Shown here in pieces: positions 19,901-28,426 of a stretch of DNA of 45,262 bases. The position numbers and the translations under genes are program-made. How positions within the stretch are numbered: position 1 is the first letter of the stretch; each line of letters starts with the position of its first letter. Where the stretch lies: positions 1 to 45,262 of the forward strand of contig JADBJK010000064.1 in assembly GCA_014874485.1 (NCBI GenBank), read 5' to 3'. Under the pieces are notes generated by a model. The model saw only the letters and a program-made list of their open reading frames with translations, was not told the DNA's origin and made no database searches. Origin of the DNA: Chloroflexota bacterium (GTDB lineage Bacteria > Chloroflexota > Anaerolineae > DTLA01).

Positions 19901-21523
19901 TTGTACACGTGCTCGCCGGACTCGCTCAAGATCATCAAAGAACGGATTCACGAGCACAATCTGAACCGCGTGATCGTGGCATCCTGCACGCCGCGGACCC
20001 ATGAGCCGCTCTTCCGCGAGACCATCCGCGAGGCAGGGTTGAATCCCTACCTGTTTGAGATGGCGAACATCCGCGATCAGTGCTCGTGGGTTCACAGCAG
20101 CGAGCCGGAAAGGGCTACGCGGAAGAGCGAGGACTTGATCCGAATGGCGGTCTGGCGCGCGAGGACGTTGGAGCCGCTCTATAAGCAAGAGCAGACCCTG
20201 TTCCACAGCGCGCTGGTGGTCGGCGGGGGCGTCGCGGGGATGTCGGCGGCGTTGAGCCTGGCCGATCAAGGGTTCCCGGTGTACCTGGTGGAGCGGTCAG
20301 ACCACCTGGGCGGGATGGCGCGGGACTGGGCGCGCGGGGTCAGCGGGTCCAGCCCCGCCGCCGAGGTCGCGGAACTGGTGGCCCGGATCGCCTCGCATCC
20401 CAAGATAGAAGTCCTGCTCGGTACCCGGATTGTCAAGACGCAAGGGTTCATCGGCAACTTCCGGACTACCGTGGCCAGTGTTCACGAGCCGACGCAGCGC
20501 CTTCTGGAGCACGGCGTTACCATCATCGCCACGGGTGGTCAGGAATATCGGGGGACGGTCTTCGGCTTGGGTTCTCGGCCGGAGGTAGTAACGCAAGGGG
20601 ATTTGGAGCGGACGCTCGCCGAGTTGGAAGCAGGCTTGCACCCCGACCATCCGCTGCGAAGGCCGGGTGCCGTGGTGGCCGTTTTGCAATGCGTGGGCCC
20701 GTGGGATGAGGACCCGTCGCAATCGTTCTACTGTAGCCGCATTTGCTGCGCGGTCGCCATGAAGAATGCGCTCCGCATCAAGGCGCTGAATCCGCAGGCG
20801 ACGGTTGTGGTGTTCCACGAAGACGTGCGGACCTACGCTTTCCATGAGGCGCTTTACACGCAGGCGCGGGACGCCGGAGTGCTGTTTGTTCGCTTGGAAG
20901 ACCGACGACGGTTGGAGATTGCTCCTGCCGAAACGGGGGTGCGGATACAGGTTCCCGATGCCGGGCTGGGGCAAGATGTGGCGGTGCAGGCGGACATGCT
21001 GGTGTTGTCCAGTGCCATCATCCCCGCCGAGGGGAGCGTTGCGTTGGCCGAGACGTTCAAGTTCTCGTGCACGCTGGAGGGGTTCTTCGCCGAGGCGCAC
21101 GTGAAGTTGCGGCCGGTGGACTTCGCTGCCGAAGGCCTGTTTCTGTGCGGCGCGGCCCACTACCCGAAAACGATTGAAGAAAGCATTGCCCAGGCTCGTG
21201 CTGCGGCTGCGCGAGCGGCGGCGATCTTGTCCAAGGATGTGTTGGAGGTGGGCGGCGTCGTCGCGGTGGTTACGGCAGAGCGGTGCACGGCCTGCCTCAC
21301 GTGTGTGCGGATTTGTCCGTTCGGTGCGCCACGGATCAATCCCGATTTGATCGGGGCAGGCGGAATTCAAGGCGCTGCTGAAGTGAAGGCGGCGGCGTGC
21401 CAGGGGTGCGGCCTGTGCGTTGCCGAGTGCCCGGCCAAGGCCATCCAACTCATGCACTACAAGGATGAACAGTTGCTTGCGAAGGTTGAGGCGTTGCTCG
21501 TGGCAGAAGGAGGTGCGCGATGA
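16985..21523 (+). CDS. HdrA with inserted GltD-like NAD(P)H oxidoreductase domain
   Basis: A 1512-residue fusion. Residues 1 to about 150 are the HdrA FAD entry (ALVIGGGIAGVQAAIDLA) and a CTSCDDCAKVCP cluster. Residues about 155-630 are a complete glutamate-synthase-small-subunit-type module: CKHACPADTSAQGYVALIAQ, VCNHPCESQCNRGKA, FAD motif VAVVGAGPAGLSAAYFLARM, NAD(P)H motif VVVVGGGNTAIDTARTALRL and a final GIFAGGDAARGPGALIEAIA. HdrA then resumes (CLGCGICSECHRCVVACK, LQCVGSRDTEHDYCSSVCCM). A second HdrA-like half follows (VFVCSCGSNIAGVVDV, ALVVGGGVAGMSAALSLADQ), then two ferredoxin motifs. The protein could accept NAD(P)H electrons and bifurcate or confurcate them. Its stop overlaps the following mvhD start. 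Confidence 0.9.
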   Translation: MSENASAPVGAALVIGGGIAGVQAAIDLASAGIKVYLAERSPAIGGKMAQLDKTFPTNDCAICIISPKLAECGRHPNITILTNAEVTGLRGEAGNFVATVRQKPRYVDLERCTSCDDCAKVCPVHLPDEYNERMRERTAIYRPYAQAIPSAYAITKRGTSPCKHACPADTSAQGYVALIAQRRYAEAFEVVREYNPFPATVGRVCNHPCESQCNRGKADAPVAICALKRFVADYVYEHGLEGTAPSVYAVKPDPQAANLPVAVVGAGPAGLSAAYFLARMGHPVTVFEALPVAGGMMRVGIPAYRLPRDVLDREIQNILRAGVELRLNTPIRNLNNLLTQGFKAVFLAIGAHQPQKLGIPGEDVEGVFHGVPFLRAVALGESPAIGRRVVVVGGGNTAIDTARTALRLGAEQVTILYRRDRDAMPANPWEVEEAEREGIRLHLLTAPVEVLSDDGHVVGVRCVRMQLGEPDSSGRPRPIPIPRSDFTIPCDTLVAAVAQAPEISLLDPDHGLEVTRFGTFRVDPKTLATNRPGIFAGGDAARGPGALIEAIAAGRRGALSIHRYLKGEPLLTPREEIPLPVAELSTEEVRAELATGAAAPRPRAIIPTLPVAERLQGFAEVELALDEEAAVREAERCLGCGICSECHRCVVACKAEAIDHQQAPVEMEIPVGAVVLATGYNLYDARRSQEYGFGRYSNVVTAMQYERLLSASGPTAGHVQRPSDNREANRIAWLQCVGSRDTEHDYCSSVCCMYATKQALLTLEHVHGAECHVFLMDMRAFSKGFDAYFARAKEQGIRYHRCRVSSVKEDPKTRDLLLTFTDGDGALHEAAFDLVVLSVGMEIPPETRQLAESLGVGLRREGFARPRPFHPVETDRPGVFVCGAVADPKDIPDSVVEASAAAAAALEIIGKARGTQIVPKTLPPETPVQPTDEPRIGVFVCSCGSNIAGVVDVAEATRYAASLPGVVHAENTLYTCSPDSLKIIKERIHEHNLNRVIVASCTPRTHEPLFRETIREAGLNPYLFEMANIRDQCSWVHSSEPERATRKSEDLIRMAVWRARTLEPLYKQEQTLFHSALVVGGGVAGMSAALSLADQGFPVYLVERSDHLGGMARDWARGVSGSSPAAEVAELVARIASHPKIEVLLGTRIVKTQGFIGNFRTTVASVHEPTQRLLEHGVTIIATGGQEYRGTVFGLGSRPEVVTQGDLERTLAELEAGLHPDHPLRRPGAVVAVLQCVGPWDEDPSQSFYCSRICCAVAMKNALRIKALNPQATVVVFHEDVRTYAFHEALYTQARDAGVLFVRLEDRRRLEIAPAETGVRIQVPDAGLGQDVAVQADMLVLSSAIIPAEGSVALAETFKFSCTLEGFFAEAHVKLRPVDFAAEGLFLCGAAHYPKTIEESIAQARAAAARAAAILSKDVLEVGGVVAVVTAERCTACLTCVRICPFGAPRINPDLIGAGGIQGAAEVKAAACQGCGLCVAECPAKAIQLMHYKDEQLLAKVEALLVAEGGAR

Positions 21524-21975
21524 CCGAGTTTGAGCCGCAGATTCTGGCCTTCGCGTGCCATTATTGCGCCTACGCCGCGGCGGATTTGGCAGGCTCCATG
21601 CGCTTGCAGTATCCGCCGAATGTGAAGGTCGTGCATGTGCCGTGCAGTGGGAGGGTTGACATCATCCATATCCTGCGCGCCTTTGAGCGCGGGGTGGATG
21701 GCGTATTTGTGGCCGGCTGACTGAAGGGCACCTGTCATTACCTGGAAGGTAATTTCGGAGCGGAGCGCAGGGTCAACTACGTGAAGCACCTTCTAGACCA
21801 GATAGGGCTGGGCAGTGCGCGCTTGGAGATGTTCTTTCTTGCGTCCTCAGAGGGGGCGCGGTTCGCCGAGATTTGCCGAGAGATGACCGATCGTATCCGC
21901 CAGTTGGGACCGAACCCGCTGGGTCCCAGCGCGGAATCTTTTCCGCCGGACACCAAAGGAGGATGTTCAGAATGA
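21520..21975 (+). CDS. MvhD-family subunit, selenoprotein (Sec67 encoded by UGA)
   Basis: A 151-residue MvhD homologue if the in-frame TGA at 21718-21720 is read as selenocysteine. Residues 1-66 include CHYCAYAAADLAG (Cys13, Cys16) and VPCSGRVD (Cys42). Read-through continues GVFVAG-U-LKGTCHYLEGN with Cys72, then a normal MvhD C-terminus. In the cysteine paralogue of this operon the equivalent residues are Cys85 and Cys90, also five apart. A hairpin stands 17-33 bases after the UGA. The read-through stop (21973-21975) overlaps the metV ATG in an ATGA, the spacing expected of an intact gene. VhuD of Methanococcus is a known Sec-containing relative. ATG 21520 has AGGAGG and overlaps hdrA's TGA. 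A nonsense mutation is the alternative, but is disfavoured. Confidence 0.85.
21718..21753 (+). promoter_or_regulatory. UGA codon and candidate bacterial SECIS of mvhD(Sec)
   Basis: After TGA (21718-21720), ATTACC (21737-21742) pairs perfectly with GGTAAT (21748-21753) around the loop TGGAA. There are 22 bases between UGA and the apical loop, and a G stands at loop position 2. Both fit the general bacterial SECIS pattern (loop roughly 16-37 bases downstream, early G). Confidence 0.7.
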
Positions 21976-26607: not shown

Positions 26608-27033
26608 ATGGCGAAGATTCGGAAGGTCGTGAAAGAGAACGCGGGTTTGCTGATCCTGGCGGCCATCGTGGGCGCCATGTATCTCTACCTGCGCACGCCT
26701 GGGGATACGCTGGCGACGGAAGCCGAACTGGCGGCGGTTTTCTCGGCAGGGAGGCCCGTGCTTGTGGAGTTGTACTCCAACACCTGAAGCGCCTGCCTGA
26801 TGTCCAAGCCCGCCGTTGACGGGTTTGAGCGGTCGCACCAGGGGCAGGTCGCCGTCGTGCGTCTGAACGTCGCGTCGGCGCTGGGCAACGCCCTGGCGTA
26901 TCAGTTCCAGGTGCGCGCGGTGCCCACTTTTCTCCTGTTTACCCCCGACGGCGAACTCGCGGCGAAACATGTGGGAATCGCGACCGCCGGACGCCTGGCA
27001 AGTCTGTTGAGCGAAGGAACGGAGGGACGTTAG
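26608..27033 (+). CDS. Membrane-anchored thioredoxin-like selenoprotein (UxxC motif)
   Basis: 141 residues if TGA 26785-26787 is read as Sec60. An N-terminal membrane helix (GLLILAAIVGAMYLYL, about 13-28) is followed by a thioredoxin fold outside the membrane: PVLVELYSNT-U-SAC (Sec60, Cys63), then a helix, VAVVRLNVA, RAVPTFLLF with the cis-proline at 106, and GELAAKHVG. Stopping at the UGA would leave a membrane helix plus one strand and no active site. A strong hairpin lies 25 bases downstream. The read-through stop (27031-27033) is two bases before the fmdB ATG. The start could also be ATG 26593, but that leaves almost no leader. Probable role: extracytoplasmic thiol-disulfide exchange; the partner is unknown. 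Confidence 0.82.
26785..26827 (+). promoter_or_regulatory. UGA codon and candidate SECIS of the thioredoxin-like selenoprotein
   Basis: TGA 26785-26787. CAAGCCCG (26805-26812) pairs with CGGGTTTG (26820-26827) through eight pairs (one G-U) around the loop CCGTTGA. The apical loop begins 26 bases after the UGA. The first loop G is at position 3, a slight departure from the usual model. Confidence 0.65.
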
Positions 27034-27035
27034 GT

Positions 27036-27245
27036 ATGCCGATTTACGAGTACCGCTGTCCGCACTGCGGCAAGGAGTTTGAAAAACTGGTGCCGATGCA
27101 CACGGACCCGCGAGAGGTGGAGTGTCCCCACTGCGGGAAGAAGGGCGTGGAGAAGAAGATGTCGCTCTTCGGGATGGGGGGCACCGGCCTGGGCGGCCTT
27201 TCGGTCTCCCAGGGCTCCTCGTGCGGCACGGGTGGCAGCACCTGA
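27036..27245 (+). CDS. FmdB-family zinc-ribbon protein
   Basis: A 69-residue protein starting MPIYEYRCPHCGKEFEKLV, the hallmark of FmdB/CxxC_CxxC_SSSS putative regulatory proteins. A second CxxC (VECPHCGKKG) completes a zinc ribbon, and the tail is Gly/Ser-rich with a further Cys (SSCGTGGST). ATG 27036 has GGAGGG upstream and follows the selenoprotein stop by two bases. FmdB proteins are linked to amidase/formamidase or metal-dependent systems, but their role is not settled. Here it travels with redox selenoproteins. Confidence 0.87.
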   Translation: MPIYEYRCPHCGKEFEKLVPMHTDPREVECPHCGKKGVEKKMSLFGMGGTGLGGLSVSQGSSCGTGGST

Positions 27246-27308
27246 GGAATCTAGCGGGCGGGCCGTGGGCCTGCCTTTGCAGCGCACATTTCGCGAAAGG
27301 ATGGTCGG

Positions 27309-27662
27309 ATGGACACAAACGAGACAGAGCAAGTGGTGGTGTCGGTCTTCGGGAATGACCTGATGGAGAGTTGTTTCAGCGGAGGCTGAGGACCGCACTG
27401 GTCTTCGGAGGAGACCACGAGGATTGTCGCCGAGTACCTGCGGGAAGACTTCGGCGATCGGGTGAAAGTGGAATACTACGAACTGTCGGACCCGGAGATG
27501 CAGGCGAAGTTCGCGGATGTGGTGAAGGCCGTGGACGAGCATGGCCTGGCCTATCCGCTGACGGCGATCAACGGCGTCTTCCGCTTCGCGGGTGGCGTAA
27601 GTTACTACGCCATCCTGCGGGCTGTGCAAGAGGCGCTCGGCATCTCGGAGGGCGAATCATGA
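27309..27662 (+). CDS. YuzD/DUF1462-like selenoprotein (Sec27 encoded by UGA)
   Basis: 117 residues if TGA 27387-27389 is read as selenocysteine. The order is VVVSVFGNDLMESCFSGG-U-GPHWSSEETTRIVAEYLRED, then YYELSDPEMQ, GLAYPLTAINGVFRFAGGVS and a final helix. This matches the thioredoxin-fold YuzD/DUF1462 family, in which the early strand ends in CASC and 'FYPLV' carries the cis-proline. Sec27 takes the place of the second Cys of that motif, and Cys22 lies five residues before it. A hairpin sits 9 bases after UGA with its loop 17 bases away. The true stop (27660-27662) overlaps the next ATG. ATG 27309 has AAAGGA upstream. No biochemical role is known for the family. Confidence 0.8.
27387..27417 (+). 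promoter_or_regulatory. UGA codon and candidate SECIS of the YuzD-like selenoprotein
   Basis: TGA 27387-27389. TGGTCTTC (27399-27406) pairs with GGAGACCA (27410-27417), eight pairs with one T-G wobble, around the 3-base loop GGA. The loop starts 17 bases after the UGA with G in the first position, which fits the bacterial SECIS model well. Confidence 0.7.
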
Positions 27663-27751: not shown

Positions 27752-27784
27752 GCGGTCAGGAACCCCAGCGCGCCGTCGGCGCGC
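27749..27784 (+). promoter_or_regulatory. Possible SECIS after the small membrane peptide
   Basis: GCGCGCC (27768-27774) pairs perfectly with GGCGCGC (27778-27784) around the loop GTC, with 23 bases between the UGA (27749-27751) and the loop. Geometry fits a SECIS, but a GC-rich intergenic hairpin would look the same. Confidence 0.35.
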
Positions 27785-27950: not shown

Positions 27951-27997
27951 GATTGTGCAATGCGGTGCAAAGATCTCCGCTCGGCGAGGTGAGAAGA

Positions 27998-28426
27998 ATG
28001 CGCAGCGAGTCCACCCCTCTGTACACCATTGGCACGGCGGCCGAACTTCTGCAGGTCCATCCACGCACCTTGCGCCTGTACGAACAGTTCGGCCTCATCC
28101 GTCCCGCCCGCAAGAACAACCGGCGCTTCTACTCGGAGAACGACCTGAAGTGGGTCCAATGCATCCGCTACCTGATCCACAAGAAGGGCCTCAACCAGGA
28201 GGGGCTGCGCCGGCTGTTGGGGCTGATCCCCTGCTGGGAGTTGAAAGGCTGCTCCGAGGAAGAAAGGGCCGCGTGCACGGCCTACGAGGATCGCGCAACG
28301 CCCTGCTGGGAGATTGCCAGCAGCACGTGCGCGAAGGCCGGGAAGTGCTACGAATGCGAGACGTACCTGGCGGCGCGGCATAGGCTCCTGAACCCCGATG
28401 AGTTGGCGGAGATCGGGGCGGTCTAG
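27998..28426 (+). CDS. MerR-family regulator with Cys-rich CW-type C-terminus
   Basis: A 142-residue protein. Residues 8-76 are a MerR winged helix (YTIGTAAELLQVHPRTLRLY, FGLIRPARKNNRRFYSENDL). The remaining half holds seven cysteines: Cys79, 85, 93, 103, 111, 117 and 120, in the pattern PCWELKGC, AACTAY, TPCWEI, CAKAGKCYEC. Paired CW...C motifs like these occur at the ends of various bacterial signalling proteins and are likely to hold a metal or Fe-S cluster or sense redox state (inference). The start has GAGGTGA upstream. It lies between the selenoprotein cassette, beyond a terminator, and the glycosyltransferase 23 bases downstream, which it may share a transcript with. Confidence 0.83.
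   Translation: MRSESTPLYTIGTAAELLQVHPRTLRLYEQFGLIRPARKNNRRFYSENDLKWVQCIRYLIHKKGLNQEGLRRLLGLIPCWELKGCSEEERAACTAYEDRATPCWEIASSTCAKAGKCYECETYLAARHRLLNPDELAEIGAV

Follow-up and report, generated by a model that had tools for sequence, protein, structure and literature searches.

A putative selenocysteine form of DUF1462/YuzD-like proteins and its gene neighbourhood in an uncultured Chloroflexota bacterium

The DUF1462 family and a UGA-split relative

DUF1462/YuzD (PF07315) is a conserved protein family of unknown function that also occurs in Bacillus and Staphylococcus, and it is represented among solved structures by the YuzD-like protein of S. aureus (PDB 1XG8, SCOP c.47.1.17). Both DUF1462 and the ArsD metallochaperone family (PF06953) have been assigned to the thioredoxin clan (PMC3091736). 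Thioredoxin-fold selenoproteins have been catalogued in other families and with other motifs (Trx UxxC, Grx, PDO, SaoT, TsoX and Sec.1/Sec.2), some of them encoded in multi-selenoprotein operons such as SAO and Tso (PMC13188914). The 119-entry catalogue of prokaryotic selenoproteins (May 2026) lists neither PF07315 nor PF06953, no NCBIfam model names the family, and a literature search found no selenocysteine (Sec) form of DUF1462, in agreement with the original prediction, which knew of no such form. The family described here (Sec-DUF1462) would be a new selenoprotein family of a known kind, in which a known domain family takes up Sec.

The window, meaning the whole 45,262-nt stretch of DNA that was analysed (contig JADBJK010000064.1 of assembly GCA_014874485.1), contains the following features of this gene:

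27309-27662, plus strand: Sec-DUF1462/YuzD-like gene, 117 amino acids, with the motif C22-x4-U27-G-P (from read-through translation, homologues and an AlphaFold thioredoxin fold)
27372-27374, plus strand: codon of Cys22, the likely partner of Sec27
27387-27389, plus strand: predicted Sec UGA codon, residue 27
27399-27417, plus strand: predicted bSECIS stem-loop of 8 bp with loop GGA (27407-27409)

The frame 27309-27659, which reads from MDTNE to SEGES, contains a single internal TGA and ends at a second TGA (27660-27662), which overlaps the ATG (27659-27661) of a 30-residue ORF downstream, as had been noticed originally. No tRNA or Rfam match was found within the window itself. The evidence set out below indicates that this UGA-split gene very probably encodes a selenoprotein, a Sec version of DUF1462/YuzD from an uncultured Chloroflexota host.

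The original prediction placed both halves of the protein in the DUF1462/YuzD family and the TGA at the position of the second Cys of its early CxxC-type motif. Taken alone, the window protein scores below the Pfam gathering thresholds for both DUF1462 (19.1 bits, E 0.0016-0.0017, threshold 25) and ArsD (15.2 bits, threshold 27). Its relatives carry the proposed profile search further: three Sec forms exceed the DUF1462 threshold (L005, 32.0 bits; L078, 33.0 bits; L013, 28.9 bits), and with the DUF1462 HMM 31 of the 38 members give matches at E <= 0.1 (best 6.2e-11), compared with eight of 38 for the ArsD HMM (best 0.0083). Against solved structures, the family profile finds 1XG8 first (E of 2.9e-08 and of 1.2e-08, with the second-best chain at 0.0099) and aligns the Sec column with the second Cys of its CASC motif, as predicted. 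The spacing is another matter, as the window protein has C-x4-U-G-P and not CxxU, and other Sec forms have C-x3-U. The window protein shares fold and length with DUF1462/YuzD and differs in its Sec for Cys, its C-x4-U spacing, its U-G-P and its Chloroflexota host.

An AlphaFold model of the window protein has a thioredoxin fold (pLDDT 82.6, pTM 0.76), in which the loop carrying C22 and U27 is of low confidence (residues 24-26 below 50). The best match to this fold is again 1XG8 (Foldseek 1.7e-04; VIA Z 9.7, rmsd 3.4 over 103 residues, first of 998 chains), followed by ArsD and thioredoxins (Z ~8). The family also aligns by hhalign with Chloroflexota ArsD (probability 92.7, E 4.4e-07), with U27-G-P falling on the third ArsD Cys-G-P. 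Given these profile scores and the match to 1XG8, "DUF1462-like" is the most fitting name for the predicted protein, and ArsD is a second and more distant cousin. An NCBIfam match to TsoX (E 0.18-0.19) was at chance level, was not repeated across the family, and was rejected.

Exchange of Sec and Cys, and the bSECIS hairpin

Homologues were collected by a search of 199 relatives (23 matches), by profile searches in the class (396 genomes) and in the phylum (400 genomes), which added members from other families, and by a collection scan with the alignment downstream of the UGA, which gave 11 loci from Anaerolineae/Chloroflexi MAGs; in a joint alignment of Cys and Sec forms, no stretch was sufficiently conserved for such a scan. 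The named relatives of the window protein are Anaerolineae/Chloroflexi MAGs, which places the host in Chloroflexota and most likely in the class Anaerolineae. Counting the window, 27 Chloroflexota Sec forms have TGA at the identical codon and seven homologues have a Cys codon there, which bears out the exchange of U and C that was to be looked for. At this column, U or C stands in 38/38 rows of an alignment that includes four more distant thioredoxin-like Sec proteins, and from which L022/L075 and L023 (not clear members, as they lack a Cys/Sec motif or match over a short stretch) and the frame-shifted L018/L074 were omitted. Nearly all Sec forms have a Cys three to four residues upstream of U, and a true CxxC is present only in the Cys forms of family f16 (L017/L019/L020/L021). 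The TGA forms span several families and include near-complete genomes of few contigs, and many genes of the family have a purine-rich stretch, like a ribosome-binding site, upstream of the start. Within the genus, pN/pS values of 0.04-0.09 were obtained upstream of the TGA and of 0.08-0.24 downstream; by these ratios, purifying selection acts on both sides. On the tree, the Sec/Cys label takes three changes, of which the well-supported branches force only one.

The four distant proteins come from a group (L090-L094, family f66; Dehalogenimonas-like, the genus name being inferred) with the motif SCUGPKGQSSETI, which was rejected as part of the family. Its members give weak matches to Thioredoxin_3 or DUF1462, and L090 is flanked by genes for SBF/ACR3-like and ArsP_1 permeases, so the group was treated as a neighbouring thioredoxin-like one and kept outside the main counts. 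In all four of the rows used, a hairpin loop lies 20 nt past the UGA.

The host genome encodes SelB (349 bits, cut-off 242) and tRNA-Sec (67.9 bits, gathering score 47), the machinery for Sec decoding, a lack of which in the host would have spoken against the original prediction. Sec forms were present in 25 further genomes, two of which are Dehalogenimonas-like; among these 25, SelB was found in 22, tRNA-Sec in 21 and at least one of the two in 24, and the only genome with neither is a MAG of ~900 contigs. The machinery is also common among genomes without a Sec-DUF1462 gene, so its presence is a necessary condition and not a correlation.

Published constraints on bSECIS elements are a loop of 3-9 nt with G within the first two positions, 16-37 nt from the UGA, an upper stem of 4-16 bp and a minimum free energy (MFE) <= -7.5 (PMC13188914). 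The window hairpin, TGGTCTTC[GGA]GGAGACCA, lies within all of these constraints (PMC13188914), with an energy of -10.4 kcal/mol; it starts 9 nt past the UGA and has its GGA loop 17 nt away, exactly as first described. In single-sequence folding against shuffles, the hairpin is unexceptional (z = -0.29) in this GC-rich sequence, and a best-hairpin energy scan with synonymous recoding likewise gave a weak signal for single sequences. As the hairpin is unremarkable alone in GC-rich DNA, its significance as a putative bSECIS element arises only through comparison across homologues. The decisive count is that of fixed-register pairing: in the 27 Sec forms 180/189 pairs are formed, compared with a mean of 99.1 and a maximum of 123 in 2000 synonymous recodings that preserved every amino acid, and although relatedness inflates such pair counts, differing codon contexts (SSEETT, SQAEIT, PSLKV) keep both the stem and the loop position. 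In the Cys forms, the same register gives 12/42 pairs (11.3 expected), which indicates that the hairpin is absent. Among 22 distinct sequences, 96.1% of cells are paired as against 40-56% when the partner is slid, five of the seven pairs show changes on both sides, and the covariation score was reached by none of 500 shuffles. The proposed bSECIS scan thus returned a covarying stem, within published limits and absent from Cys forms.

The gene neighbourhood and other candidate selenoproteins

The clue to function lies in the operon context, which the original prediction did not mention. The genes around Sec-DUF1462 in the window are the following:

26608-27033, plus strand: membrane-anchored thioredoxin with a U-S-A-C active site, TGA 26785-26787 (PF00085, 3.8e-11)
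27036-27254, plus strand: FmdB-family zinc ribbon protein with a C-terminal C-x6-U-G-I-stop, TGA 27243-27245 (TIGR02605, 64.6 bits)
27256-27276, plus strand: bSECIS-like element of the FmdB gene, a 9-bp hairpin with loop GTG past the stop codon
27659-27751, plus strand: 30-residue ORF with a single transmembrane (TM) segment ending GVGG-TGA, a candidate C-terminal-Sec microprotein on weaker evidence (hairpin 27768-27784)
27953-28426, plus strand: MerR-family regulator, downstream and possibly outside the operon (PF13411, 3.6e-17)

The thioredoxin, encoded by the upstream gene of the cassette, reads YSNT-U-SAC, with TGA in the first active-site position, and the same neighbour, there too read with Sec, is found in the relatives G001, G002, G003 and G467. 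Thioredoxin reductase (TrxB) lies beside Sec-DUF1462 in G003, G421, G502 and G474 (TIGR01292, 372.8 bits in G421), OsmC in G049, G421 and G474, and FmdB in G001, G002, G003, G421, G502, G467, G029, G062 and G089. A protein disulfide oxidoreductase (PDO; TIGR02187, 273.2 bits in G467) is nearby in G014, G049, G421, G502 and G467, in several cases with UPYC. By eye, the four f16 Cys-form genes lie near an apparent sigma factor, anti-sigma factor and glycosyltransferase, two of them directly after a thioredoxin-like frame. In the large group f36, no redox gene was recognised nearby, and the neighbour is a LonB/LonC-like protease instead. Gene neighbours are an association and not a reaction.

The FmdB gene of the window ends in C-GTGGST-TGA-GGA-ATC-TAG. 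All 30 FmdB loci examined in the class have a TGA near the end, mostly in the form C-xn-U-[G/S/R]-[I/V/F], and ~17-24 nt later there is a hairpin whose loop contains G and which often lies past the stop; of 23 phylum loci read, 16 also have such a terminal TGA, and in most of these a similar hairpin follows. This pattern suggests C-terminal Sec in FmdB proteins, and a widespread C-terminal-Sec FmdB family is probable. No Cys version of the tail was found among the FmdB loci examined in class and phylum, and so the case for Sec is less complete here than for DUF1462. Known FmdB selenoproteins have U/CxxU sites (PMC2398784, PMC9312934); the marine GOS protein belongs to the same family (TIGR02605; PMC2398784) and differs in this respect from the C-terminal C-x(n)-U-G-[I/V/F] arrangement found here.

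The small TM ORF is a weaker candidate for C-terminal Sec than FmdB. Its TGA in the window is followed 23 nt later by a 7-bp hairpin with a GTC loop, and in four lineages the small TM ORF after Sec-DUF1462 runs out in glycines and a TGA, again accompanied by hairpins; the relatives would end in GGGNT-U-GL (L078), GGGGGGG-U-GTYQ (L080) and GGGG-U-KV (L081). This layout resembles that of the SelK-type small membrane selenoproteins of eukaryotes.

Other in-frame TGAs were observed in the course of the work. Elsewhere in the window, an MvhD-like (hydrogenase/HdrA delta) frame adjoining HdrA (21520-21871) has a TGA at 21718-21720 (FVAG-U-LKGTCHY) and belongs to a known selenoprotein type. Near Sec-DUF1462 genes of relatives, L113, L111, L112 and L042 are PDO or glutaredoxin-like frames with TPT-U-PYC and hairpins of their own. 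L095 (G467:C145) is a thioredoxin-like paralogue with an in-frame TGA (CG-U-GSSCGPSC), and L149 (G430) carries the C-terminal Cys cluster of ArsD as GCC-TGA-QKGEF, possibly a C-terminal Sec.

Proposed function and its alternatives

Sec-DUF1462 is probably a cytosolic thioredoxin-fold protein that acts as a selenol/thiol oxidoreductase through Cys22 and Sec27 and is fed by the thioredoxin system. SelB would decode UGA 27387-27389 as Sec, aided by the downstream bSECIS hairpin. In the predicted structure, Sec27 would lie just ahead of the first helix, with Gly-Pro next to it, as in the C-G-P-C of thioredoxin. Most likely, Sec27 would attack the oxidised substrate, perhaps a protein disulfide, a hydroperoxide or a persulfide, and Cys22 would resolve the intermediate as a Cys-Sec selenenylsulfide. 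Judging from gene order, electrons would most likely pass from NADPH to thioredoxin reductase and then to thioredoxin or PDO, which are neighbours in relatives. In a wider proposal, which stands about an even chance, the Sec-thioredoxin, the C-terminal-Sec FmdB, Sec-DUF1462 and the Sec microprotein (with Sec-PDO UPYC, TrxB and OsmC in some genomes) would form one Chloroflexota cassette, a selenol relay from NADPH to a membrane acceptor. As a multi-selenoprotein cassette around Sec-DUF1462, it looks undescribed.

A selenoprotein could instead serve as a metallochaperone of the ArsD type, in which As(III), Hg(II) or another soft metal(loid) would be bound by Cys22 and Sec27 and then passed on. 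ArsD has a thioredoxin fold, a similar C-terminal half and C-x4-C-G-P in common with the C-x4-U-G-P of the window protein, came second in the fold search and aligns in profile as described above, and the distant Dehalogenimonas-like Sec proteins lie between an SBF/ACR3-like and an ArsP permease gene. However, the ArsD motif is CC-x4-C-G-P, and the window protein lacks one Cys of this vicinal pair as well as the C-terminal CCG clusters; the DUF1462 model matches far more members (31 versus eight of 38), the host genome has no ArsD match, and no ars genes were recognised at the core-family loci, where neighbours were HMM-scanned in part. This function is unlikely. It is quite unlikely, too, that the protein is a trafficking factor for sulfur, selenium or Fe-S clusters that perhaps acts for the operon's small proteins with C-terminal Sec. 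FmdB with a C-terminal UGA is indeed a frequent partner, the small TM ORF comes next in several lineages, and the yuzD of Firmicutes presumably adjoins an Nfu-like Fe-S gene; yet no Fe-S or Se-transfer genes were recognised nearby, and the TrxB, PDO and OsmC neighbours indicate thiol redox.

Doubts about the UGA itself carry far less weight. That the window is a single MAG contig and its hairpin, in isolation, unremarkable might suggest that the TGA is a true stop, that it arose by misassembly or that the gene is dead, with halves that are separate or non-functional. Such an origin is very improbable, as the TGA is shared by 27 genes from several families and near-complete genomes, selection persists past it, U and C exchange at the site, and the covarying hairpin is confined to TGA forms. 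A genome-wide reassignment of TGA, for example to Trp, has practically no chance of being correct: nothing but the in-frame TGA speaks for it, homologues have Cys and not Trp at the site, the upstream HdrA gene and the Sec-DUF1462 gene itself both terminate at TGA, and SelB and tRNA-Sec are present.

For the family, a Sec-containing selenol/thiol oxidoreductase would provide DUF1462 with a functional handle, since the predicted replacement of the second Cys by Sec suggests that this residue is catalytic in DUF1462. Because ordinary gene calls split the gene, Sec-DUF1462, together with the C-terminal-Sec FmdB and the small membrane protein, is prone to mis-annotation in Chloroflexota genomes. 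The cassette as a whole points to a selenium-based redox pathway, as yet undescribed, in a phylum that is abundant and largely uncultured.
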